From Bacteroidota bacterium (lineage in GTDB: Bacteria; Bacteroidota; Bacteroidia; 2-12-FULL-35-15), in NCBI GenBank assembly GCA_947504725.1, contig CANNHN010000008.1, forward strand, positions 1-64,000: DNA of 64,000 nucleotides. The letters run 5' to 3'. Made by a program: the position numbers and the translations under genes. Of this stretch, positions 47,498-64,000 are shown piece after piece. Position 1 is the first letter of the stretch, and every line of letters begins with the position of its first letter. The notes below the pieces were generated by a model that was not told the origin of the DNA, did not search any database, and was given only the letters and a program-made list of their open reading frames with translations.

Positions 47498-48385
47498 ATG
47501 ATTCAGTCTACTAATAAAATATTAGTTCCAATAGATTTTTCAGAACAGTCGCTTATTGCTCTAGAGCAATCTTTCAATATTGCTCGTGAATACCATGCTG
47601 AAATTACGTTGTTGCATGTAATTGAAGAAGCGAGTGCGTTTGCGAAATTTTTCTCAAGCGAACAATCAGAGGATGTAAAGAAGAATGCACAAAAAGAGCT
47701 TGACAAACTTGCAGATAGTGTAGAAAAGAAGGCAAAAATAACAGTAAATACATTGGTTGCAAAAGGGACCATTTATGAGAAAGTGGCTGAAGTGGCTGAA
47801 TTGATAAATGCAACAATGATTATCATGGGTACAAACGGAGACGAAGGAAAGCGAAAACTTTTCATCGGGTCGAATGCATTGCGTGTGGTTCGTGAGTCTG
47901 TTGTCCCAGTTATTACTATTAAGGGTAAGCATCATCGAAAAGGCTGTAAAAACATTGTATTGCCACTCGATTTATCTAAAGAAACGCGCGAAAAAGTTAC
48001 CAAAGCGATTGAACTTTCAAAATTGTTTGGTGGCGCTTCTATTCGTGTTGTTTCTGTTCTATTTACTACAGATGAATTTGTTGTTAATCGGTTAACACGT
48101 CAACTCGGACAGGTAAAAACATTTCTAGAAAAAGCAGACATTGAGTGTACTGCCGAAATTATTAAAGGAATAAAAGGGGAAGAGACCTTAGCTGAAAATA
48201 TATTAGAATATGCAGGAAAAGTAGAAGGAGATTTAATTATGATTATGACACAGCAAGAGGTTGATTTTACTCAGTATTTTATTGGTTCTTCCGCTCAAGA
48301 GATTATTAATCATTCTAAAATACCAGTTTTAAGTATTCGTCCTTTGCCTAAAAAAGATACCACATTATTTCCAAATCCATATTAA
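47498..48385 (+). CDS. Universal stress protein, tandem-domain
   Basis: 295 residues with two UspA-type domains. The first (1-145) has the ATP-binding pattern MGTNGDEGKRKLFIGSNALRVVRESVVPVITI (G-2x-G-9x-GS/N). The second (150-290) is divergent, ending IGSSAQEIINHSKIPVLSIRP. These cytosolic proteins usually respond to oxygen, energy or redox state. The next usp gene follows 17 bases later and shares the transcript. Confidence 0.9.
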   Translation: MIQSTNKILVPIDFSEQSLIALEQSFNIAREYHAEITLLHVIEEASAFAKFFSSEQSEDVKKNAQKELDKLADSVEKKAKITVNTLVAKGTIYEKVAEVAELINATMIIMGTNGDEGKRKLFIGSNALRVVRESVVPVITIKGKHHRKGCKNIVLPLDLSKETREKVTKAIELSKLFGGASIRVVSVLFTTDEFVVNRLTRQLGQVKTFLEKADIECTAEIIKGIKGEETLAENILEYAGKVEGDLIMIMTQQEVDFTQYFIGSSAQEIINHSKIPVLSIRPLPKKDTTLFPNPY

Positions 48386-48402
48386 ACTCTAAACTAAAAT
48401 TT

Positions 48403-49284
48403 ATGAAAGCGTTCAACATCCAAAAAATTTTAATTCCAATTGATTTTTCTGATACATCCATGTTGGCTATAGAGCACGCAGGTTTTACTGCTCAATTATT
48501 TAAAGCCGAATTGGTTTTACTACACGTAATTGAAAAGCATTGGGAGCAGTTTAGTATTGTTGCTCCAGAGTTAAGAATATCAACTCCTTCAGATTTGATG
48601 AATGCAATAGAAAAAAAATTAGGCGAAGTTGCAGCAGATATTTTAAAAAAATATGGTGTAAAATCAACACATGTCACTTCAAATGGAAATATTTTCAACG
48701 AAATCCTTACTGTTTCGAAGGAACACAATGTTGATCTCGTTGTAATGGGAACGCACGGTACATCTGGTGTTGTTGAGTTTTTTATTGGTAGCAATACTTT
48801 TAAAATGGTTACTCAATCAGAATGTCCAATTATTTCTGTTCAAGCACATGCAAAAAAACTAGGCTTTACAAATATTTTATTGCCAATTGATGACTCAGCA
48901 CATTCTCGTCAGAAAGTAAATCATGCTATTGTTTTGGCTAAACATTTCGCATCCAAAATTCATATTCTTGGCTTATTCGACTCAACTGATGAAACGGATA
49001 GAAAAAAATTCGAAATTAAATTGGATCAAATTGAAGAGTATGTTAAAAAATGTAATCTTCCATATACAAGAAAAACTGTTGACGGAAAAAATCAATCCAA
49101 AACAACATACGACTATGCAAAATCTGTTGATGCGGATTTGATTGTGATCATGACTGATCAAGATGAAGCCATCACCGGAAGATTGATGGGAACATACGCG
49201 CAGCAGATTATCAACCATTCTAAAATACCTGTATTGTCTATTCAACCTACATTAGCGAATATACCTTGGGTGCATCCTTACTAG
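48403..49284 (+). CDS. Universal stress protein, tandem-domain (paralogue)
   Basis: 293 residues, two UspA domains as in the gene before it. First domain motif MGTHGTSGVVEFFIGSNTFKMV; second ends MGTYAQQIINHSKIPVLSIQPT. The same IINHSKIPVLSI run in both genes shows they are duplicates. Expressed from the upstream promoter. It ends before the long inverted repeat that separates it from the convergent giant gene. Confidence 0.9.
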   Translation: MKAFNIQKILIPIDFSDTSMLAIEHAGFTAQLFKAELVLLHVIEKHWEQFSIVAPELRISTPSDLMNAIEKKLGEVAADILKKYGVKSTHVTSNGNIFNEILTVSKEHNVDLVVMGTHGTSGVVEFFIGSNTFKMVTQSECPIISVQAHAKKLGFTNILLPIDDSAHSRQKVNHAIVLAKHFASKIHILGLFDSTDETDRKKFEIKLDQIEEYVKKCNLPYTRKTVDGKNQSKTTYDYAKSVDADLIVIMTDQDEAITGRLMGTYAQQIINHSKIPVLSIQPTLANIPWVHPY

Positions 49285-49413: not shown

Positions 49414-52400
49414 TTATTGTCTTACAAATCGCGTAGAGGATTCTTTACCTTCTTTAGAAATTACTTTTACTAAATAGATACCTTTTGAAATTGGATTGAA
49501 TTGAATCTTTTGTTGATTCGTGTTAGAAGAATAAACCAGTTCTCCAAGCATATTGTATATTGATATGGCAGAAATGTTTTCAGAAGTGATAATATTTACA
49601 ATGTCGCTGCTCGGATTTGGATAAACATTTATCACTGTGTTTTCAGAAACTTCATTCTCAATTGATATGATATTGGAATACGTGTAATTACCATCAAAAT
49701 CGACTTGTTTCAATCGGTAGTAATTTATTCCATTCAAGCGATTTGCATCAAAATATTGATAGTTTTTTATTGAAGTAGAATTTCCTGCTCCTTCTTGTCT
49801 AGAAATATTTGTAAACTCAATTCCATTATTACTTCTTTCTAAATCGAAATAATTATTATTTGTTTCAGTCGCAGTGGTCCATTCTAATTGGTTACCATCA
49901 GAAGTAGGATATCCAGTGAAGGTTGTTAATTCGATTGGGAGAGGATTAACAGCTGTAGGACCGCTAAATGTAAATGCATTACTTGTACCTCCTGTAAATG
50001 TTGTTGCAACGTTTGAAGTAACTGTTCCAGTTATACCAGCGGTAGTTATTCCTGTCGCACCTCTATCGTTCCATTGTGTAGGTGCAAATTCAGCTACGTG
50101 TAAATCGGCTGCAATAGGAGAAGATATAGCACTACCAAGACTTGCTGACGAAGAATTATTTTCCCAGTACAATTTTACAGAAGGCGTGCTAGTTCCTGCA
50201 GCACGAGCTAAGTTCCAATATTCTTTATAACTAACGTGGTCAATTCCTGCTCCGTAAGTACTAGTAAGAACAGGTGTTAAGCAATTGTCATTAATTTTCA
50301 TATATTCAGCAGTAAAAGCATCCGTCAAATTCGTTGGCGCTGATATTTCTATTCGTGCCCATTTAGCTGTATTAACAGGCCCAGTAGCAATATATACTTT
50401 TCCGGTCGGGAATACAAAAGCAGTATTACCAATTTTTTGAATAGGACCATTAACAAACGCCCCAACAGTCGCGGATGTTAATGACCCTGGACTAGAAGTT
50501 CCACCAGCTCCAATAGTCATTAAATTAGCTGCCGTTGTAATTAATCTACCTCTTGTTAAAATAAGAGAACCAAGTGTGGAAGTTGCTTGCGTTAACGTTA
50601 CACCAGATGTAACTAATGAAGAAGTATTATTAATTGTTAAAACAGATGCCGCTGTCAAAGCAGCAGGCAATCCATTACCTGTCACTTGCGCAACTGTTCC
50701 ATAATACGTATAACTAGCGCCTGCATTATAGTTTCTAGCACCCGTAACTCTCACACAACCAGTTGCACCGCTAGCCAATGTTGTGATTCCTTGAGCATGT
50801 CTTGTCATTAATACTCCATCGGCATTCAAATTAAATATACCAGTACCCGTAGTTGCATCAGTAATGGCATAGGAAATCAAATCTAAAATAGCATCTGCAT
50901 TAACATTCATTGTACCTGATACAGTCAAAATTCCTGTCGCTACAACTTGCAAATCGTAGGTTACGCTTAAAGCATTGTGGTTTACATTAAATGTTGTTCC
51001 AGAATTTACTGCAAAGGTAGCCGCAGCAGGTACGGTTGTTCTTACTGTAGACAGTCCTCCCTGAGAAATATTAAAAGTGATAAGTGTTCCACTAAATCCG
51101 TTAGTACTTTGGATCGTTTGGGGTAGAGTATTTCCATCAATATTAATGGTTGCGATTGCTGTAGCAACTGCAGAAGTTCTTGCAAAGGATGCTGCTACTG
51201 TAACATCATGGCTAAAGTTTCCAGCAACATTTATAGTCCCTGTTCCTCCACCACCAGTTCTTGTAGCTGAAGTTAGATTAATTGTTCCACCGTTAAAGGT
51301 AGCAGCGCCATTTAAATCCAGTAGTCCATTTGCAAAGGTACCAGCACCTGATGATGAGCATAGATTAATTGCTCCACCGCTTTGTAAAAATGCTCCAGTA
51401 ACTGTAAGTGTACCATTTCCACCGCCACCTGTAGTAGATCCGGATGCCATATTCAAAGTTGCAGTTCCGGAGATTGTACAAGTTGAAGAAACGGAAATAC
51501 TACCATTTGAGCCTGCTGTTCCAACAGCCGTACTAGAATTAACATTTATTGTACCAGAAGAGAAAATCATAGCACCAGCAACGTTGATGGTGCCACTGCC
51601 ACCACCGCCAGTAACACTACCTGGAGTTAAATTAACTGTTGCTCCATTCACTGTTAACCCTGCATTAGCGTTGATAATTACAATTGCTGCAGAAAGTGCT
51701 CCTGTTGAGGTAGAACCATTAAGTGTTCCACCAGAGAGTGTCATTAATCCAGTTGAAGTAATGGTCGCATTTCCACCGGTTGTTCTTGTACTTGAAGTTG
51801 TATTTAATGTTCCACTCGACATTGTAAAGGTGCCACTTGTTGTGATAGTTCCATATCCACCAGATCCTGAACCACTACTTGTAGACATATTTACAGTTCC
51901 GCCATTGATTAAAATATTTCCTGTGGAGGCAAGTGTTCCGTATCCTGCAGCACTTGTTGTATTAGAACTGTTGGTTAAAGTTAATGTTCCTCCAGAAATT
52001 GTAGTTGTAGTGCCAACTGAGATTTGCCCATTGCCATTTGCAGTGCCTCCTGCACCTGAATTTTCTGAAACGATGCATGTTCCAGCTGATTGGGAGTAGG
52101 AACCCGTAATATTTAAGGTTATATTCGAATCTGGGAATCCAACAGTACCATTTGTTAATACTAAAATTCCTCCGCTCATAGAAAAATTTCCACCAATGGT
52201 TGTTCCTCCTGCATTGGTCCCTTTGAGAACCAATCTGCCCGCTCCCGTGCTTTTTAATGTAAAATCGCTTCCTACTTTGGTTCCATTGAATGCTCCGGCA
52301 AAATTAATATCTCCAGCTGCTTGACCAGTATTATTCCAAATGAAATGACCAAAATTTTGGCCAATATTTGAAGGTCCAGCACTAGGTCCCAAACAAGCTA

Positions 52401-53121
52401 GAATTTCACAAGTTGAAGTCACGTTCCAGGTAGAAATAGGAATTACTCCAACAGTTGCGGCAAAACTATGTTTGTAAAAACTACCTGGTCCATGTATTAA
52501 AGTTCCTGTAGTTGTTATCGTTCCAAAATTCGTAAGAATTCCATTGTTTGTAATGGTCCGTAAGGAATTAATTATCAGCGTACCAATGTTGGTTATAGTG
52601 CCTGCAGCTGCATTTGTAAATGCACCTGCACCAGCTTGTGTAATAGTTGCTACTGTTGCATTATTAACGGCTAAATTATTTGTAAAAATACCGCTGTTAG
52701 TAATTGATAAGTTATTGTTTATTGTTCCATTATTTATTATGGTACCAGTTGTTGTTAAGGTGTTTAATGTTCCATTGTTAGTAATTAATCCTGCTAAATT
52801 ATTTGTAAGAGTAAAGCCTGTGTTAACTCTTAATGTTCCTCCACTATTAATGACAATACTTGCAGAGTTGGAAACAGCTGCAACAATATTTACGACATTT
52901 GGCGACTGAATTGTAATTGTTCCACTTGCCGCAGTTGGGAATACACCTGCACCAGCTGCAACAAAAGATGTACCATCGTGTATCTGCCATGTAGTATTAG
53001 CATTCCAGTTTCCTGTAGCTATTGAGCGAAAATCACCAGCAACTTGACCAAACGAATTTGAAATAAATAAGACAAAAAAGCAGATTCCGAGTAGAAGCTT
53101 TTTTGATAGTATTTGTAGCAT
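49414..53121 (-). CDS. Giant T9SS beta-helix surface protein
   Basis: 1235 residues. Signal peptide (about 8-25, ending SFG), then a long stretch rich in Thr, Gly, Asn and Ser. The N-terminal section (52500-52900) has GTINN/ITNNG-type short repeats. A central array (about 51210-52040) has about ten imperfect 29-residue repeats of the type GTI..SG..T.SGGT.N..SS...GG, a right-handed parallel beta-helix pattern. The C-terminal part has an Ig/FN3-like LPIELTTFTGYPTSDGNQLEW section, then a type A sorting domain (INVYPNPSSDIVNI). It likely forms a fibre-like adhesin on the surface. Base use is GC-richer than neighbours. Confidence 0.9.
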   Translation of the reverse strand: MLQILSKKLLLGICFFVLFISNSFGQVAGDFRSIATGNWNANTTWQIHDGTSFVAAGAGVFPTAASGTITIQSPNVVNIVAAVSNSASIVINSGGTLRVNTGFTLTNNLAGLITNNGTLNTLTTTGTIINNGTINNNLSITNSGIFTNNLAVNNATVATITQAGAGAFTNAAAGTITNIGTLIINSLRTITNNGILTNFGTITTTGTLIHGPGSFYKHSFAATVGVIPISTWNVTSTCEILACLGPSAGPSNIGQNFGHFIWNNTGQAAGDINFAGAFNGTKVGSDFTLKSTGAGRLVLKGTNAGGTTIGGNFSMSGGILVLTNGTVGFPDSNITLNITGSYSQSAGTCIVSENSGAGGTANGNGQISVGTTTTISGGTLTLTNSSNTTSAAGYGTLASTGNILINGGTVNMSTSSGSGSGGYGTITTSGTFTMSSGTLNTTSSTRTTGGNATITSTGLMTLSGGTLNGSTSTGALSAAIVIINANAGLTVNGATVNLTPGSVTGGGGSGTINVAGAMIFSSGTINVNSSTAVGTAGSNGSISVSSTCTISGTATLNMASGSTTGGGGNGTLTVTGAFLQSGGAINLCSSSGAGTFANGLLDLNGAATFNGGTINLTSATRTGGGGTGTINVAGNFSHDVTVAASFARTSAVATAIATINIDGNTLPQTIQSTNGFSGTLITFNISQGGLSTVRTTVPAAATFAVNSGTTFNVNHNALSVTYDLQVVATGILTVSGTMNVNADAILDLISYAITDATTGTGIFNLNADGVLMTRHAQGITTLASGATGCVRVTGARNYNAGASYTYYGTVAQVTGNGLPAALTAASVLTINNTSSLVTSGVTLTQATSTLGSLILTRGRLITTAANLMTIGAGGTSSPGSLTSATVGAFVNGPIQKIGNTAFVFPTGKVYIATGPVNTAKWARIEISAPTNLTDAFTAEYMKINDNCLTPVLTSTYGAGIDHVSYKEYWNLARAAGTSTPSVKLYWENNSSSASLGSAISSPIAADLHVAEFAPTQWNDRGATGITTAGITGTVTSNVATTFTGGTSNAFTFSGPTAVNPLPIELTTFTGYPTSDGNQLEWTTATETNNNYFDLERSNNGIEFTNISRQEGAGNSTSIKNYQYFDANRLNGINYYRLKQVDFDGNYTYSNIISIENEVSENTVINVYPNPSSDIVNIITSENISAISIYNMLGELVYSSNTNQQKIQFNPISKGIYLVKVISKEGKESSTRFVRQ

Positions 53122-54808: not shown

Positions 54809-55621
54809 TTACCGATTAAAAGCCATTCTTAATTTTATTTCAGTCAGCACTTTTTTTGTGTACAATGGAAAGTCACCATTTAGCATCCATGAATAATAAG
54901 ATGGCTCGTCTTTAAAAACTTGCTCAACGGGCTTACCCATATGCTTTCCGAAGTTAAATACTTCCACACCATTTTCATTAAAAATAATTCGACCAACTAA
55001 ATCAGCATTTTTATTAATGTTTGTAAAATCGTGTAAAGCTTTAATATCATTTTTTACTGGCGTTGATTTCACTCCTTTTTTATCTTCAAATTCAACACCT
55101 TCATATTTTTCAAGTTGAGCCATAAAAACTTCAAAGGTTGCTTCAATGTCGGCTTGCGCGCTGTGCGCGTTTTTTATGTCTTTCCCGCAATAAAATTTGT
55201 ATGCAGCTTTTAATGTGCGTTGCTCCATTTGGTGAAAAATGTTTTGAACATCAACAAATCTTCTGCCTTTTATATCGAAATCAATTTCTGCACGCAAAAA
55301 TTCTTCTACTAAAATCGGAATGTCAAATTTATTAGAGTTGTAGCCAGCCAAATCGCAGTCTTTCAGAAACTCAGCCAAGCTTTTTCCAATTCCTTTAAAT
55401 GTTGGTTCGTTCGCAATATCTTTGTCGTATATGCCATGAATTTCTGATGACGTGACTGGAATAGGAATAGTAGGATTTATTCTTTTCGTTTTTATTTCTT
55501 TTGTTCCATCTGGAGAAATTTTCAAAAATGAAAGTTCTACTATTCGATCTGATGCAACATTTACTCCTGTGGTTTCTAAATCAAAAAATGCAATGGGGCG
55601 AGTTAAATTAAGTTGTATCAT
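54809..55621 (-). CDS. DnaQ-like 3'-5' exonuclease with C-terminal DUF3820
   Basis: 270 residues. The exonuclease domain (about 8-175) is of the DEDDh type: D14 and E16 in FFDLETTGV, D100 in YNSNKFD, and H153 and D158 in AHSAQADIE. The C-terminus (about 222-262: FNFGKHMGKPVEQV...YYSWML) matches DUF3820, a short domain of unknown function often joined to exonucleases. It probably degrades single-stranded DNA or RNA ends in repair. No polymerase subunit lies near. Confidence 0.9.
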   Translation of the reverse strand: MIQLNLTRPIAFFDLETTGVNVASDRIVELSFLKISPDGTKEIKTKRINPTIPIPVTSSEIHGIYDKDIANEPTFKGIGKSLAEFLKDCDLAGYNSNKFDIPILVEEFLRAEIDFDIKGRRFVDVQNIFHQMEQRTLKAAYKFYCGKDIKNAHSAQADIEATFEVFMAQLEKYEGVEFEDKKGVKSTPVKNDIKALHDFTNINKNADLVGRIIFNENGVEVFNFGKHMGKPVEQVFKDEPSYYSWMLNGDFPLYTKKVLTEIKLRMAFNR

Positions 55622-55652: not shown

Positions 55653-57269
55653 CTATTTCTGGAGGGTAAAAAACTTTTTACTCTCGTTTTGTCCAATGCC
55701 AATATCAAAAATGAAAAATGCATCAGTAAGTGTTTTGTAACCATCGGCTTCAATTGTAATTTGATATTTACTAGGTGTTAGAGCCATTATAAATTTACCA
55801 GTGTTCGGATTATAAGTTAATTCTATTGCATCTTTATTTTTTAAATCTTTTATAGTTACAAAAGTGGCAATATTCTTTGCACTATCAATGGCAGTAATAT
55901 AGCCTTGTAAAATCGTTGTTCTGTCTTCGATATCATCATATTTTATACGATAAAGATCCAAGTCTCCAAATCCGCCTTCTCTGGCAGCAGATATATATGC
56001 TACACGATTGTTTTCTGTGAAAGAAATGCATCGGTCATCACCTACAGAATTTATTGGATAGCCCAAGTTTTTTGGAGCTGTCCAAGTATTTTCTTCTTCA
56101 TTCCAAGTAGATTGAAATAAATCGAAATCACCCATTCCTGCATGACCTTGTGATGAAAAATATAGTGTTTTACCATCAGGAGCAATTTGAGGGAAATCTT
56201 CTTTGTATTTTGTGTTGATTGTATTTCCTAAATTTTGTGCGCGTGCCCATTGTCCGTTGGGTAATTTACGTGACATATACACATCTGTTTCACCTAATCC
56301 TCCTTCGCGTTTGCTCGTAAAAAATATAATGTTACCATCTGGAGTGATGGATCCTGCCGTTTCAAAATCGGAATTGACATTGCTGTTTAATTTTTTCATT
56401 CGTTGGAAAACACCAGCTTTATTCATAGACGAATAAATGTTGCCTAAGCTGTCAATATGGTCAATATACATGAGCATCGTTTGTCCGTCCGGTGTTAATC
56501 CTACTGCTTGTTCGTCATAAAGTGTATTTACAGTTCCGGTCATGTTTTTTGGTTTTGTCCAAACATCGTTTACTGGTAACGAGATATAAATGTCAGAAGA
56601 GTAATAGCCATCAACTTCTACTTGTCCACCGATATTATCTTTTCTTCGAGAGGTAAATACAACAAAACTTTCGTTTGCAGGAACAAAAGGATAATAATCG
56701 GGGTATTCTGAGTTGATTTCTCTGCCAAGATTTTGGAAAGTAACAGATATAGGGTGTTTAATGTATTCTTTCCCATTTTCACACGTTTCTATTTGATGTT
56801 CTACTTCTTCTAATTCAGCGCCTTTTAAAAGTGTTTTGTAGGTAGTATACGTTTTTATAGCATCATCAAATCGACTAGCATATTGGTATGCGAGTCCTAA
56901 ATGATACAATACTTTTTTTTCTGGTTTAGGCGCTTTACTTGCAATCTCTAAATATGGGATTGACAATGATTTATTGATATTCGTGTACAAGTAGGAGATA
57001 CCTAGTCTGTAATTATAATCAGGATTATTGGGTTCTTGCTTTAAAAGTTGTTTGTATGCAGGAATAGCGAACAGAAAGTTCCCATGTGAGAAATGTTCTT
57101 TAGCATCAGCAGGATCGATAACTTTAGACGTTTTTGGTTGAGCACGTAAGCTATTAACAAGCAAAACTGATAGCGCTAAAAAAAGCACTTTGTTAATTGT
57201 TCGAGAAGAAAATGTATTCACCACAAATCTCTTTTTAAGCTTAGTTCCAAGTTTGGTACCAAAGTACAA
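55653..57269 (-). CDS. PorE-like TPR/PD40 protein without OmpA domain
   Basis: 538 residues. Signal peptide or membrane helix (hydrophobic about 27-42, ending LRAQ) is followed by TPR units (about 55-160), a six-bladed PD40/WD40-like region with LTPDGQTMLMYI, ITPDGNIIFFTSKREGG and IAPDGKTLYFSSQGHAGMGDFDLF, and a short carboxypeptidase-regulatory-like domain at the C-terminus. There is no OmpA domain. No ATG occurs before the signal, so the start is TTG or, more likely, GTG 15 or 16 codons further. It is the shortest and outermost of four tandem paralogues. Confidence 0.85.
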   Translation of the reverse strand: MYFGTKLGTKLKKRFVVNTFSSRTINKVLFLALSVLLVNSLRAQPKTSKVIDPADAKEHFSHGNFLFAIPAYKQLLKQEPNNPDYNYRLGISYLYTNINKSLSIPYLEIASKAPKPEKKVLYHLGLAYQYASRFDDAIKTYTTYKTLLKGAELEEVEHQIETCENGKEYIKHPISVTFQNLGREINSEYPDYYPFVPANESFVVFTSRRKDNIGGQVEVDGYYSSDIYISLPVNDVWTKPKNMTGTVNTLYDEQAVGLTPDGQTMLMYIDHIDSLGNIYSSMNKAGVFQRMKKLNSNVNSDFETAGSITPDGNIIFFTSKREGGLGETDVYMSRKLPNGQWARAQNLGNTINTKYKEDFPQIAPDGKTLYFSSQGHAGMGDFDLFQSTWNEEENTWTAPKNLGYPINSVGDDRCISFTENNRVAYISAAREGGFGDLDLYRIKYDDIEDRTTILQGYITAIDSAKNIATFVTIKDLKNKDAIELTYNPNTGKFIMALTPSKYQITIEADGYKTLTDAFFIFDIGIGQNESKKFFTLQK

Positions 57270-57371: not shown

Positions 57372-59801
57372 TTAATTCGCGCCAACTCTTACAAATTGGT
57401 ATTTTTCGTATTGCGCTCTATTTGTTAAAAAGTCTCTTTGATATTGAGGTCCATCTACATAAGCCTTGAATTTTGTGATGACAATATTTTCTTCACTTAT
57501 TCCTCTTTCTTTCAATGCTGTAATAATTTGTTCCTTCATTTTATCATTTCTGGCAATTGATAAAGCTTTGTTTGTTGGATAAGCTTTAGTTGGCACTTGT
57601 GATGCACTAGAAACGATACTTAAATTGATTTTTCCGTTTGTTTTGTAAAGTGCTTCAAGATTATCAATGTAGGCTTTAAATGGAGTATCATTAATATCTG
57701 TCTCCGTTACATTGTATCTAAAATACATTTCAAAGTTTAGTTTATCTGTTTTAGCTAATTGCTCGTGTGGAGCATTCACTGGTTTTACATCTGTTTGCTT
57801 GTATTTGCCTGTTTTAATTGTTACTAAGTTCTTGCCATGTTTGTATTTGTGGCCATCTTTCTTTGTTTTTACAGGATTGCCATCTTGATCTTTAATTTCA
57901 ATGGAAGACTTTTTGCTTACAACAATATCTGCTGCATCAAGTGCAACTAAATAATCTTCATTAGCAGGTAAATTTGTAAAAACAAAAAATCCTAAATCAT
58001 CTGTTGTTGTAGATTGAATGATTTCTCCTTTTGAGTTTAATAGATTTACTTTAAAATTTGGTATTCCTTTTGGCGGATTTTGATCATCAAGCATTTGTCC
58101 GCTTATGTTAATAAAAGCAACTTTATCACTTTTTGTAGTGTTTCCAATAGTGTTGTTGGTGCTATCTTTAGAAGAAGAAATAGGAACTCCTAAATTCACA
58201 CCATTTAACAAAACTTCTTTATTTATTTCTTGATAAGCAGCGCTCATCGGAACTTCAATAATTTCAGAAAAAAACTCTTGTCCTTCATTTGTATAAGAAA
58301 GGGTATAGTTACTTCCTGGAGGAATAATGATTGTAAAGCTTCCATCTCTTAGCATTGGTTTGTAAACTCCAGCAACAACACCTGTTTCGTTATTTGTTGC
58401 AGAGATTTCAAGATTTGGCGGTAAGGGTTGTCCAGGAGCTGGAATAATAAATCCTTTAATTAAAACCAATGGAACTTCTTTTCTTTCAGGCAATGAAACC
58501 ATATAGATGTCCTTTTCTCCGTAGCCTTCTGGGCGAGAAGAAGAAGAATAGTAACCTCTTCTACCGTCTGGAGAGGTCACATAAAAAACATCATCGTCAG
58601 TTGTATTTATTGGGTAACCAATATTTAGAGGTGATTCCCATCCATTTGTTTCTTCATTTTTAGCAGAAAAGAAAATGTCAAATCCGCCAATTGATTGGTG
58701 GCCTGTTGAGCTAAAAAACAACACGTTACCACTTGGGTGAATGAAAGGTGATTCTTCATCGTAAATGGTATTGATAGGTGCTCCAACGTTTACCGACATG
58801 CTCCATTTTCCATTAGGTAATTTAACGCATTTCCAAATATCTCTTCCTCCTAATCCACCTGCTCTGTTACTTACATAGTACAATGTGTTTCCATCAGGAC
58901 TTAAGCAAGCGCTTGTTTCCCAGCCTGCGCTGTTAATGTCGGAACCCAAAGCTTGCGGAAAAGTCCAAGAATTGCCTTCAACAGTACTGAAATAAATATC
59001 TCCTCCGTTAGAATCTTTGTAAATTAAGAGTGTTTGCGCATCAGCCGTTAAACCAACACTTGCTTCATGGTTCACAGAGTTTACATTTGAACTTACTGAT
59101 ACAGGTGTTGTCCAAGTATCGTCAGCTTTTTTATAAGAAATATAAATGTCTTCGTAAAATTGACCATCATCTGTTTTATCCATACCCGTTCCAGTTGATC
59201 TTCTAGAGGTAAAGATTAACGTGTTTTCATCTGCAGAAAGAACGGGACTGTATTCGGGAGATGGAGTATTGATGCTGTCACCTAAGTTTTTGAGAATAAT
59301 ATTCATAGGAGCAATACACAATAATTTTGCATTGTTGCTGATTTCAATTTGTCTGTCAACATCTTTGATGAGCTCAATATTGTTGCTTTTTAAAAAGGAT
59401 TTAAATTTTTCATAATTTGCAATGGCGTCATCAAACTTATAATTGAAATGCAAAGCTTGCCCATAATAGTAATAGGCATTAACAGGTGCCGATTTTTCTG
59501 TTGGTTCAAGATCATTGTAGTTTTTTGAAGTTTTTAAAACAGCTTTTTCAAGGTAATAAAGTGCTTTGCTTTTTTCTGTTTCAGATTTCATATAACATAA
59601 ACCTACTTTAAAGTTGATGTTAGAGTTGGTGGAGTCAATCTGATAAGCTTGTTGGAAGTTTTGTAAAGCTAGTGTGTAATTACCTTCAAGAATAAGATAA
59701 TTTCCTTCAGTGAACTTTTGGCGATAGTCTGCTTTGCTTTGTCCAAATAATGAGACGTTAAAAATAAATAACGAGAAAAATAAAACAAATATCTTTTGCA
59801 T
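57372..59801 (-). CDS. PorE-like protein with non-canonical OmpA-like domain
   Basis: 809 residues. Signal peptide (1-20, ends SLFG), TPR units (about 25-160), six-bladed PD40 region (about 185-430, GLTADAQTLLIYKD, CLSPDGNTLYYVSNRAGG, FIHPSGNVLFFSS), two carboxypeptidase-regulatory-like modules (about 445-640), then an OmpA-like C-terminal part (about 690-805). In the last part the canonical TD..G motif is replaced by SSASQVPTKAY; the later Arg (SIARND) is retained. Likely periplasmic and outer-membrane associated. The paralogues resemble PorE, which helps anchor T9SS or gliding machinery to peptidoglycan. Confidence 0.88.
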   Translation of the reverse strand: MQKIFVLFFSLFIFNVSLFGQSKADYRQKFTEGNYLILEGNYTLALQNFQQAYQIDSTNSNINFKVGLCYMKSETEKSKALYYLEKAVLKTSKNYNDLEPTEKSAPVNAYYYYGQALHFNYKFDDAIANYEKFKSFLKSNNIELIKDVDRQIEISNNAKLLCIAPMNIILKNLGDSINTPSPEYSPVLSADENTLIFTSRRSTGTGMDKTDDGQFYEDIYISYKKADDTWTTPVSVSSNVNSVNHEASVGLTADAQTLLIYKDSNGGDIYFSTVEGNSWTFPQALGSDINSAGWETSACLSPDGNTLYYVSNRAGGLGGRDIWKCVKLPNGKWSMSVNVGAPINTIYDEESPFIHPSGNVLFFSSTGHQSIGGFDIFFSAKNEETNGWESPLNIGYPINTTDDDVFYVTSPDGRRGYYSSSSRPEGYGEKDIYMVSLPERKEVPLVLIKGFIIPAPGQPLPPNLEISATNNETGVVAGVYKPMLRDGSFTIIIPPGSNYTLSYTNEGQEFFSEIIEVPMSAAYQEINKEVLLNGVNLGVPISSSKDSTNNTIGNTTKSDKVAFINISGQMLDDQNPPKGIPNFKVNLLNSKGEIIQSTTTDDLGFFVFTNLPANEDYLVALDAADIVVSKKSSIEIKDQDGNPVKTKKDGHKYKHGKNLVTIKTGKYKQTDVKPVNAPHEQLAKTDKLNFEMYFRYNVTETDINDTPFKAYIDNLEALYKTNGKINLSIVSSASQVPTKAYPTNKALSIARNDKMKEQIITALKERGISEENIVITKFKAYVDGPQYQRDFLTNRAQYEKYQFVRVGAN

Positions 59802-59867
59802 ACTGGGTTTCTTTAAAATAAAAATCCATCCTATTCATGTTAGATTAGGATAGTTATAAAATTCAAA

Positions 59868-59875
59868 CAAAAATA
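59868..59875 (-). promoter_or_regulatory. Possible promoter -7 box for the 809-residue paralogue
   Basis: An exact TATTTTTG on the minus strand, 66 bases before the ATG, with no -33 TTG at normal distance. Confidence 0.4.
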
Positions 59876-59944
59876 TTAAAATTTGAGGGATAAAACGTAA
59901 AGGTAGGAAAAAGAAATTAACAATATTAAGTAGTTGAAATTTAA

Positions 59945-62224
59945 CTATTTAGCTTCAATAATCTTCAGTTCTACCCTTCTGTTCAGTTGCATTCCTTTTA
60001 AGTCAGGTTTGCCATTTGGAAGTGTATTAGGAGCAACAGGGGCTGTTTCGCCATAACCCTTTGCAGCAAGATACTGCGCTTTTATTCCTTTTTTAATCAA
60101 TGCTGCAACTACAGCCTGTGATCTCATTTGAGATAGTTTTAAGTTTGCAGCATCGTTTCCTTTGCTATCAGTATGCCCAGCAACTTCAATTGTTAAATTG
60201 GGATAATCTTTCATTAACTGTAAAAGTTTTTCTAATTCTAAATTTGATTCTTTTCTAAGTATGGCTTTATTTGAATCAAAGAAGATATTATTTAAAACAA
60301 TTTTAGCTCCAATTTCTACCTTTTCTAAAACAATATTTTTTGTTAAAGCTGAGTATTCAGGCTTTTTAGGGACATTCACGTTTTCTGATTGAAACAAATA
60401 TCCTTTTGCTTCATAAGATAGATTGTAATTTTGCCCTCGATTTAAAATAAAATAATAAGAACCAGAATCGGAAGTTGTGTAATACGTATCAATTAATTTA
60501 CCTGTAATATTATCCTTTACAATAATTTGTGCACCTGCAATGGTTTCACCTTTCTGATTTTTTACATTACCTACAATACTTATTGTTCCAAGCGTTTTGC
60601 TTTCCAAGTTGATTGCTTGCATCAAAAGTTCTTTTTCAATTTCTTGATAGGATGAGTTAGGAGGAATCGTTATTGGAATACTGATAGGTTGATATCCTTC
60701 AGCTTCATAACTTACATTGTAGGTTTTTCCTTCATTTCCAGGAGTTAAAATTAAAAGGTATTTTCCGGAAGTAGCATTTGGTTTTACATTTTGAACAACT
60801 AAGCCACTTTCCATATCCGTTGCTACTATTTCAACCATTGTAAGTCCTTTAGTTGAGCCATCGAAAGTAACATACCCTTTTAACAATGTTAAAGGTTCAA
60901 CAATTGTTTTTTCGAAATTAATCATATAAAGATCTTTCTCACCAAAGCCCTCTTTTCTTACCGAAGCAAAATAGCCACGTTTACCATCTGGTGATTGTAC
61001 ATAAAAAATATCATCATCTGGTGTGTTAATTGGAGATCGCAAATTTTCTGGCTGTCCCCATTTCCCATTTTCATCTTTTAAAGATTTGAAAATATCAAAT
61101 CCACCCATGTTTTTATGTCCTTTTGAACTAAAGAAAAGGGTCACACCATCAGGGTGAATAAAGGGTGCTTCTTCATCAAATGCAGTGTTTATTTCCGGAC
61201 CAGCATTTACTGGCATACTCCATTGTCCATTTGGTAATTTCACGCAACGCCAAATATCCCTTCCCCCATAACTGCCTTCTTTTTTGTTGCTTACAAAATA
61301 AAGAGTCGTTCCGTCTACCGATAAAGAAGAATGCGTTTCCCAGTTTGGTGAATTGATGTTACTGCTTAAAGGAGTTAATGCGCTCCAAGTGTCTCCTTCT
61401 AAATTACTATAATAAATATCTCCTCCGTTAATATCTCTGTATACAAATAATTGTTGTCCATCTGCAGAAAGACTTATGTTTGCTTCATTTCCGTTGGTGT
61501 TAATGTTTAGGCCAATTGATTTTGCTGAAGACCAAGTGCCATCTGCTTTTTTATTACTAATGTAGATGTCTTCTAAAAATTGATCATTCTCTGTTTTTTC
61601 TCCGCCAGTGCTACCAAGTCTTCGAGAAGTGAAAATTAAAGTTGATTCATCAGCAGAAATAACTGGGCTATATTCTGGGTAAACAGAATTTACACTGTCT
61701 CCAAGGTTCTTTATTACAACAATTACTGAATCTTTAATTAATTCAACAGCATTAAAGTTTATTTCAACTTGTTTATCTAAATCTTTTGCTAGCTCTTTGT
61801 TTCTATTGCCAACAATGTCTTTAAATTTATTGAAGTAGTTGTTTGATTCTGGAAATCGATAAGCTAAACGATAGGCAACGGCAAGTGAATAGTAAGCCAA
61901 CTCTGGAGCTTTTTTTTCTTTTGGGTCTTCAGGATTGTAATTGTGCCCTACGTTTTGAACGGCTTTCTCTAAATATGTTAACGCTTTGTTTTTTTCGGTG
62001 GCAGATTCTAAATAACAAAACCCGACTTTGTAATTAATATTTGCATTCGAAGAATCTATCTGATAAGCATCTTTGAAATATTTTAAAGCTAAAGAATAAT
62101 TTTGTTCCAATATCAAATAATTTCCTTGTACAAAATTTTCACGATAATCTCCTTTGCTGGTTCCTTGAGAGAAAATAGAAGCAGAAATAAAAATTAAAAA
62201 GAATGAAAGTAAAATTTTCTTCAT
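59945..62224 (-). CDS. PorE-like OmpA/PD40/TPR protein (canonical OmpA domain)
   Basis: 759 residues. Signal peptide (1-19, ends SIFSQ), TPRs (about 25-170), PD40 propeller (about 190-430) with SLSADGQQLFVYRD and FIHPDGVTLFFSSKGHKNMGGFDIF, two carboxypeptidase-regulatory-like domains (about 448-640), and a true OmpA C-terminal domain (about 645-757). The OmpA domain carries IFFDSNKAILRKES, AGHTDSKGNDAANLKLSQMRSQAV and the RR of QLNRRVELK, so the peptidoglycan-binding TD and Arg positions are intact. Best candidate in this cluster for a working cell-wall anchor. Confidence 0.92.
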   Translation of the reverse strand: MKKILLSFFLIFISASIFSQGTSKGDYRENFVQGNYLILEQNYSLALKYFKDAYQIDSSNANINYKVGFCYLESATEKNKALTYLEKAVQNVGHNYNPEDPKEKKAPELAYYSLAVAYRLAYRFPESNNYFNKFKDIVGNRNKELAKDLDKQVEINFNAVELIKDSVIVVIKNLGDSVNSVYPEYSPVISADESTLIFTSRRLGSTGGEKTENDQFLEDIYISNKKADGTWSSAKSIGLNINTNGNEANISLSADGQQLFVYRDINGGDIYYSNLEGDTWSALTPLSSNINSPNWETHSSLSVDGTTLYFVSNKKEGSYGGRDIWRCVKLPNGQWSMPVNAGPEINTAFDEEAPFIHPDGVTLFFSSKGHKNMGGFDIFKSLKDENGKWGQPENLRSPINTPDDDIFYVQSPDGKRGYFASVRKEGFGEKDLYMINFEKTIVEPLTLLKGYVTFDGSTKGLTMVEIVATDMESGLVVQNVKPNATSGKYLLILTPGNEGKTYNVSYEAEGYQPISIPITIPPNSSYQEIEKELLMQAINLESKTLGTISIVGNVKNQKGETIAGAQIIVKDNITGKLIDTYYTTSDSGSYYFILNRGQNYNLSYEAKGYLFQSENVNVPKKPEYSALTKNIVLEKVEIGAKIVLNNIFFDSNKAILRKESNLELEKLLQLMKDYPNLTIEVAGHTDSKGNDAANLKLSQMRSQAVVAALIKKGIKAQYLAAKGYGETAPVAPNTLPNGKPDLKGMQLNRRVELKIIEAK

Positions 62225-62237
62225 AAAAAGAATGTTG

Positions 62238-62264
62238 CAAATTTAAGTGCTGTACGCAAATATA
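62238..62264 (-). promoter_or_regulatory. Two -7 boxes upstream of the 759-residue paralogue
   Basis: Exact TAAATTTG (plus-strand 62238-62245) and TATATTTG (62257-62264) on the minus strand, 14 and 33 bases before the ATG. Neither has a TTG at normal -33 distance, but both match the -7 consensus exactly. Confidence 0.55.
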
Positions 62265-62308
62265 GTATTTATAAGGATTTTAGGAAATTTTTTTTGGTAA
62301 AAAAAGCA

Positions 62309-62350
62309 ATAGAACAAAAAAGCAGAGAAATCTATGCTTTTTTGTTCTAT
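62309..62350 (-). terminator. Terminator between the third and fourth paralogues
   Basis: A perfect 16-base-pair stem (62309-62324 with 62335-62350) and a 10-base loop. On the minus strand GC then T6 follows. It lies just after the stop of the partial gene. Confidence 0.85.
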
Positions 62351-62358
62351 AAATATGC

Positions 62359-64000
62359 TTATTTTTTAGGTCCAGCTTTTATCTTAATGTATTGATATTG
62401 CTCATACACAGCCATGTTTTCAATCGCATCTTTTTTATATTCGGGACCTTGTACTAATGCTTTTGTGTCACTAAAGATAATTTGAGTTTTTTTAACTCCT
62501 TTTTTAGTTAAGGCATTTAAGACCTGTTCTCTTGCATTTTTAGCTCTTAAATTTGCAAGATTTTCGTTTGTTTTAAATGTTCTTGTCGGAACAGTAGACG
62601 CGCTTGATTCAATGATAATTTCAAAATTAGGATTGTTTATTAAACAGCCACTTAGCTCATCAATAAAGGTTTTAAAGTCAGCAGCATCCTTGTCAATTTC
62701 TTTTTTATTGTATTTAAAATACAGTTGAAATGTGGAGTTTTTTGTTTTACAAGGGCTATTCGCATCATTTAACGTGTTGCTATAAGCTAGCATGGAATCG
62801 CGTTGAGCAGTAGTTAATGAATCACCATAATGAATCTGTCTTCTAATAACTTGGTATCCTTTTTTTAATGGAACTTCAATTATTTCAGAAAAAATTGGTT
62901 TTTCATTAATTGTGTAAATGGTTTTATAAGAACTACCTACGGGTAAATTAGCACCGTATTTTCCTGAAGTGCTGTTTGCAGTAAGCGTTTGGATGGTATC
63001 CCCTTTTAAAGTATTAATGATGTAAATCTTATTGTTAGCAATGCTTTCTTTTGTATTGTTAACGATGTTTCCTAAAAGAATAGTGATATCGCGAGGTTCA
63101 TATTCAGGAAATTTGATCATGTAGATGTCTTTTTCTCCAAAACCACCTTCTTTATCTGAAGAAAAGAAAGCACGTTTTCCGTCAGCTGTTGTAATTAAAA
63201 AAACATCATCATCTGTTGTGTTTACAGGGTATCCATAGTTTATTGGGGGAGCCCAATTGCCATTTTCATCATTAATCATGGATGTAAAAATGTCAAATCC
63301 TCCCATTGAATTATGTCCTTTAGATGAAAAGAATATTTGTTTTCCGTCAGGATGAATAAATATTCCGTCTTCATCATATTTTGTATTGATAACATCGCCT
63401 AAATTTTGTGCAGGCCCCCATTCTCCATTCGGTAATTTCAAGCATTTATAAATATCTCTTCCGCCAATTCCTCCCGCTCTATTGCTAATAAAGTAAAGAA
63501 CACGATTGTCAGAACTAAAACAAGCATGAGATTCCCATGAAGAAGAATTGATAGGAGCTGAGACATACTCAGGAGCTCCCCATTCGCTTCCTTTTAATTC
63601 ACTCACATAAATATTTCCGTTTCCACCATCATCTTTGTAGATTAATAGCTTTTGTCCATCAGCTGATAGATTAATAGTTGCTTCGTGTCCAAAGGAGTTG
63701 ATGTTTGTTCCAATCGGTTTTGCTAGTCCCCATTTTTTATCATTTTCAGAAAAAGTAGCAGTGAAAATGTCTTCAAAATGTTCACCAGTTGGAAGTAATT
63801 TATCCGTTGATCCTCCTTTTCTTCTTGTAGTAAAAATGATAGTTTGCTCATCAAGTGAAACAACCGGAGAATAATCTGGATATTTTGAATTTACACCTTC
63901 TCCTAAGTTTTCAACTTCAACTTTTTTGGGTGTTTTAACAAGCTCTTTGCCGTAATTGCAAGTTTCTATATCGTGTTTGATCTCTTCCACCTCTAAAGTT
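62359..64000 (-). CDS. PorE-like protein, partial (5' end outside window)
   Basis: At least 546 residues; the frame is open to the window edge and the true start lies beyond it, so the TPR half is missing. Visible parts are six PD40 blades (from about KYPDYSPVVSLDEQTIIF to the AFFSSDKEGGFGEKDIYMI blade), a carboxypeptidase-regulatory-like section (SIANNKIYIINTLKGDT), and an OmpA-like C-terminus. As in the 809-residue paralogue, the TD motif is replaced by SSASTVPTRTF, while ANLRAKNA retains an Arg. Confidence 0.88.
   Translation of the reverse strand, partial: TLEVEEIKHDIETCNYGKELVKTPKKVEVENLGEGVNSKYPDYSPVVSLDEQTIIFTTRRKGGSTDKLLPTGEHFEDIFTATFSENDKKWGLAKPIGTNINSFGHEATINLSADGQKLLIYKDDGGNGNIYVSELKGSEWGAPEYVSAPINSSSWESHACFSSDNRVLYFISNRAGGIGGRDIYKCLKLPNGEWGPAQNLGDVINTKYDEDGIFIHPDGKQIFFSSKGHNSMGGFDIFTSMINDENGNWAPPINYGYPVNTTDDDVFLITTADGKRAFFSSDKEGGFGEKDIYMIKFPEYEPRDITILLGNIVNNTKESIANNKIYIINTLKGDTIQTLTANSTSGKYGANLPVGSSYKTIYTINEKPIFSEIIEVPLKKGYQVIRRQIHYGDSLTTAQRDSMLAYSNTLNDANSPCKTKNSTFQLYFKYNKKEIDKDAADFKTFIDELSGCLINNPNFEIIIESSASTVPTRTFKTNENLANLRAKNAREQVLNALTKKGVKKTQIIFSDTKALVQGPEYKKDAIENMAVYEQYQYIKIKAGPKK

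Follow-up and report, generated by a model that had tools for sequence, protein, structure and literature searches.

The SSAS.VPT tail is an offshoot of the OmpA C-terminal domain that is old and strictly conserved. It has Ser in place of the Asp that grips diaminopimelate (DAP), with the pocket Asn and the carboxylate-gripping Arg retained. The variant tail ends secreted TPR/beta-propeller proteins that are encoded in tandem with paralogues bearing canonical OmpA tails, and one bacterium probably anchors nearly identical protein bodies by two kinds of tether. We give about an even chance to the reading that the SSAS.VPT tail is a second periplasmic anchor with changed specificity, in which the carboxylate grip has been kept and the amine grip dropped.

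The tandem locus

The window, i.e., the whole stretch of 64,000 nucleotides that was analysed, is contig C8 of a 3.4-Mb genome that is 99.6% complete. Four tandem genes lie head to tail on its minus strand, and a body of TPR and PD40 beta-propeller is common to all of them. The features are as follows.

54809..55621, minus strand: RNase_T exonuclease gene
55653..57269, minus strand: 538-aa TPR-PD40 paralogue without OmpA domain, final member of the tandem set
57372..59801, minus strand: 809-aa secreted protein with signal peptide, TPR, PD40 beta-propeller, CarboxypepD_reg-like domains and variant OmpA tail
57375..57764, minus strand: variant OmpA-derived C-terminal domain (SAS-VPT tail) of the 809-aa protein
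57588..57611, minus strand: SSASQVPT loop of the 809-aa gene, standing where OmpA has GHTD..G
59945..62224, minus strand: 759-aa paralogue with canonical OmpA tail
59948..60319, minus strand: canonical OmpA domain of the 759-aa protein
60167-60178, minus strand: GHTD of the OmpA domain of the 759-aa gene
62359..64000, minus strand: third paralogue with variant tail, truncated by the window end
62362..62760, minus strand: variant OmpA-derived domain of the third paralogue
62584-62607, minus strand: SSASTVPT of the third paralogue

The set is transcribed in the order third paralogue, 759-aa, 809-aa and 538-aa gene, i.e., variant, canonical, variant, OmpA-less. The earlier note gave the order OmpA-less, variant, canonical, variant, which is true along increasing coordinates. 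It had read the loop as SSAS.VPT in the 809-aa protein and the third paralogue and as canonical in the 759-aa protein, and this is confirmed. The third paralogue, which it called partial, is indeed cut by the window end, but the genome holds the whole gene as a 717-codon open frame (L021:1363-3516). The body of the 809-aa protein is 51% identical to that of the canonical 759-aa protein and 42% identical to that of the other variant.

The proteins had also been called PorE-like. This holds for their architecture, since the bodies resemble those of the TPR-PD40-OmpA proteins CHU_0125 and PorE, but not for orthology. The three tandem proteins with OmpA-type tails score 188, 288 and 169 bits with NF052230 (PorE; cut-off 600) and 210, 278 and 201 bits with NF053607 (CHU_0125; cut-off 620), far under both cut-offs. 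PorE orthology of the tandem genes is ruled out by these profile scores; the best PorE candidate of the genome (C19, 526 bits) lies outside this locus.

Apart from the window, 13 complete loci of the same genus show the order variant, canonical (one or two genes), variant, and at 12 loci from other families variant and canonical genes lie near each other. A 2-oxoacid dehydrogenase E2 gene precedes the tandem set in the genome of the window and at eight of the nine other loci checked; at the ninth it is replaced by a NamZ muramidase gene on the opposite strand. In same-genus loci, ORFs that match the RNase_T exonuclease gene in size come after the set. These flanking genes show an old conserved locus but name no function.

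Several other genes were recorded. In a genome from a different family, a NamZ exo-muramidase gene adjoins a gene with the variant tail (L106:2078-3406). The window also encodes a repetitive protein of 1235 aa that ends in a sorting tail for type IX secretion (Por_Secre_tail; 49414-53121) and two universal stress protein genes in tandem with two Usp domains in each (47498-49284). SprA is present in the genome.

Replacement of the TD motif

The canonical 759-aa protein matches the Pfam OmpA profile (PF00691) with 65.5 bits. The third paralogue reaches 22.7 bits, under the gathering cut-off of 27.2, and a PF00691 search of the 809-aa protein gave no match. A profile comparison by hhalign relates the variant to the OmpA C-terminal fold (95.7%). 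MAFFT (209 domains), hhalign and HMMER against solved Pal/OmpA/OprF domains all place Ala-Ser on Thr-Asp; therefore the replacement is real. The loop is two residues longer in the variant, and NxxLxxxR stays in register downstream of it. The earlier note had named misalignment of the motif as an outcome that would undo its claim, and the concordance of the three methods rules it out. A sequencing or frameshift artefact is likewise ruled out, as the motif recurs in dozens of genomes.

The pattern TD(x)7NxxLSxxRA of canonical domains does not describe the variant, which has Ser at the Asp position and, in the proteins of the window, nine rather than seven residues before the Asn. The pocket Asn and Arg are found in 100% of variant domains. 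No other OmpA domain like the variant was found in the genome of the window.

Conservation and distribution

We gathered a set of 72 full variant domains from many Bacteroidia families by whole-domain search, with the motif not required. Within the class, 52 of 119 genomes and 21 of 70 genera yielded relatives. Ser occupies the OmpA Asp position in 72 of 72 of these domains, which do not include the loci found with the pattern SASKVPT, a pattern that itself selects for the motif; with those loci included, the count is 148 of 148. The same loci and genome supplied 61 canonical domains, and every one of them has Asp at this position. Y17, V57, P58, N65, L68, R72, G105, Y119 and Q123 are also invariant in the 72 domains. 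The new residues common to variant domains (VPT, GPxYxxD, Y and Q) are near-invariant; the Asp of GPxYxxD is present in 143 of 148. In a tree built without the motif columns, a single branch separates the variant domains from the canonical ones (SH-aLRT 100); the check that had been proposed, whether SSAS.VPT tails form a clade, thus has a positive answer.

The weak or absent Pfam match in the window could suggest that the variants are degenerate OmpA domains that drift without function. This explanation is very improbable and we regard it as ruled out: ten columns are invariant over 72 divergent domains although synonymous codons vary (the variant Ser uses all four TCN codons, TCA, TCC, TCT and TCG), the predicted fold is confident, and the domain is maintained in many families. 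For the same reason, the earlier statement that the TD motif had been lost is misleading, as it implies decay, while the invariance indicates an ancient conserved replacement.

Named records with the variant come from Flavobacteriales and Bacteroidia MAGs, including Vicingaceae and Crocinitomicaceae. In a phylum-wide profile search of 346 genomes, strong matches were obtained only in the genome of the window and one other; therefore the family looks concentrated in some lineages rather than phylum-wide. It is absent from 11 of 35 genomes of the same genus, some of them nearly complete. One contig with the variant tail (L220) belongs, according to its record, to a Candidatus Kuenenia (Planctomycetota) MAG; a binning error is the probable cause.

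A second family with Asp changed to Ser was noticed. It is a TPR-OmpA protein encoded beside a PorP/SprF gene (L029:940-2949; G000:C2, about 250000), has the motif GFCSPLASTDYN..LAKRR, occurs in nearly all genomes of the genus and has Ser in 12 of 12 divergent relatives. A tree of 70 columns is compatible with a single Asp-to-Ser event common to both families, but the hhalign scores do not support such an event (53.5 for variant and canonical, 35.0 for variant and the PorP/SprF-linked family, 38.2 for canonical and the PorP/SprF-linked family).

Exchange of tails between bodies

Variant tails form one group in the tail tree, but the variant proteins do not form one group in the tree of TPR-propeller bodies. 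Forcing them together in the body tree costs 129.6 log-likelihood units (AU p 1.5e-10). A single variant clade is thus rejected for the body and found for the tail, so tail and body differ in history: canonical and variant tails have been swapped on one kind of TPR/beta-propeller body. As a portable module, the variant tail also caps two paired-CXXCH multihaem cytochromes, found in two genomes of the genus (L134:5658-8477 and L135:1876-4044). Paralogues of the same TPR-PD40 body in the genome of the window end in SPOR-type tails (L022:5864-8686 and L025:992-7003), one over and one under the Pfam cut-off. These other tails of the body belong to wall-binding families.

Predicted structure

The AlphaFold model of the variant domain has a pLDDT of 95.9. 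The 50 best PDB matches listed by Foldseek are OmpA-like domains, among them PorE, OprF, Pal and A. baumannii OmpA, with query TM of 0.42-0.61 and rmsd mostly of 4-8 Å. In an identical run the canonical neighbour gave TM 0.85 at 0.7 Å. The variant is thus a true relative whose shape, as modelled, is substantially rebuilt. It is the second half of the domain that is rebuilt, around GPxYxxD, Y and Q.

The variant is like the PF00691 OmpA C-terminal domains, including that of PorE (6TOP), in fold family, in NxxLxxxR with its pocket Asn and Arg, and in its C-terminal position on TPR/propeller proteins. It differs from them in the Ser for the TD Asp, the longer loop, GPxYxxD, Y..YQY in place of NRRVE, and low structural overlap.

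Protein docking is another role for which portable tails are typical, so the putative anchor would not necessarily bind the wall. The main rival explanation is that the variant tail docks to protein off the wall and holds an outer-membrane protein or the adjoining canonical-tail paralogue. The rebuilt second half, with its new invariant aromatic and Gln residues, would suit such a module, as would the joint occurrence of variant and canonical genes at the 13 same-genus and 12 other-family loci. However, docking would not need a fully conserved pocket Asn and Arg, and the sister bodies bear other wall-binding tails. We consider docking doubtful, though it is the most serious competitor.

Pocket chemistry and candidate ligands

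In PorE with a bound stem peptide, Arg591 forms a bidentate salt bridge with the carboxylate of DAP, and Asp576 and Asn584 hold the DAP amine (PMC7192894). The earlier note stated that the TD Asp helps to bind DAP. In A. baumannii OmpA, the substitutions D271A and R286A served to demonstrate that this Asp and the Arg are both critical for DAP binding (PMC6572160). In Tp0624 of Treponema pallidum, which has a conserved Ala in place of the Asp and retains the Arg, no binding of DAP was detected (PMC5104382). Canonical DAP binding by the variant is therefore unlikely, because the DAP-gripping Asp is gone, and without it a different ligand or wall site is plausible.

Two spirochaete proteins are the closest precedents for a change at this position. 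Domain D3 of Tp0624 has the same conserved loss of Asp, but has E/Q where the variant keeps the pocket Asn. BpiP (BB_0167) of Borrelia has Glu at the Asp position and binds its own ornithine-type wall, not a heterologous wall (PMC8092773). It thus combines a change at the same position with altered wall specificity, but keeps an acidic residue and tracks an ornithine wall, whereas the variant has Ser. Most spirochaete walls contain ornithine, not DAP, and those of Treponema and Borrelia are without DAP.

In contrast, the genome studied here has DAP-type wall genes: dapF is present, and a MurE carries DNPR, a motif typical of mDAP-adding enzymes. It also encodes many canonical OmpA domains, including the one next to the variant. 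The Asp change therefore does not simply track wall chemistry.

These wall genes, the intact Asn and Arg and the new near-invariant Asp would agree with another explanation, in which mDAP is still bound and the Asp of GPxYxxD, or Ser with a water molecule, does the work of the lost Asp. The Asp of GPxYxxD could indeed fold back and stand in for it, which speaks against the changed-specificity anchor. We consider continued mDAP binding unlikely, given the reports on A. baumannii OmpA and Tp0624; a swap that preserves the ligand also poorly explains why both tails are kept side by side.

Under the changed-specificity anchor that we prefer, the Arg of the variant pocket would hold a carboxylate, and judging by the residues present the free amine of mDAP would meet no acidic residue. 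Free mDAP would then not be bound in the way that OmpA binds it, and the tail would take another ligand with a carboxylate. Candidates are a wall state in which the amine is absent or acylated, e.g., cross-linked mDAP, and a different carboxylate of the stem peptide; a protein end is less likely. The tandem set would in this way tether near-identical bodies to different sites.

Implications

OmpA-type domains are widely read as mDAP binding, and automatic annotation would call the variant tail "OmpA family" or miss it. Here a conserved clade always has the mDAP-gripping residue replaced and the rest of the grip kept, with the normal form in the same cells. In part the finding is ordinary: the domain is well known, this branch of it is divergent, and loss of the same Asp has a precedent in a spirochaete (Tp0624). 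What is unusual is the strict conservation of the changed form, its presence alongside the canonical one on the same body in a cell whose wall genes are of DAP type, and its exchange as a module. New are the separate histories of tail and body, the variant on multihaem cytochromes, and the joint presence of DAP-type wall genes and many canonical domains in the genome.

The variant and canonical pair offers a clean test of OmpA-domain specificity, with the adjoining canonical paralogue as a control. More tentatively, and as a rather improbable extension, the variant may represent an undescribed second class of OmpA-derived wall anchor that reads another wall state (e.g., cross-linked mDAP, in which the amine is acylated), so that exchangeable tails on one outer-membrane body distribute paralogues among different sites of the wall within a single cell. 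The findings suggest that the tethering of outer-membrane bodies which are nearly identical differs within some Bacteroidota.
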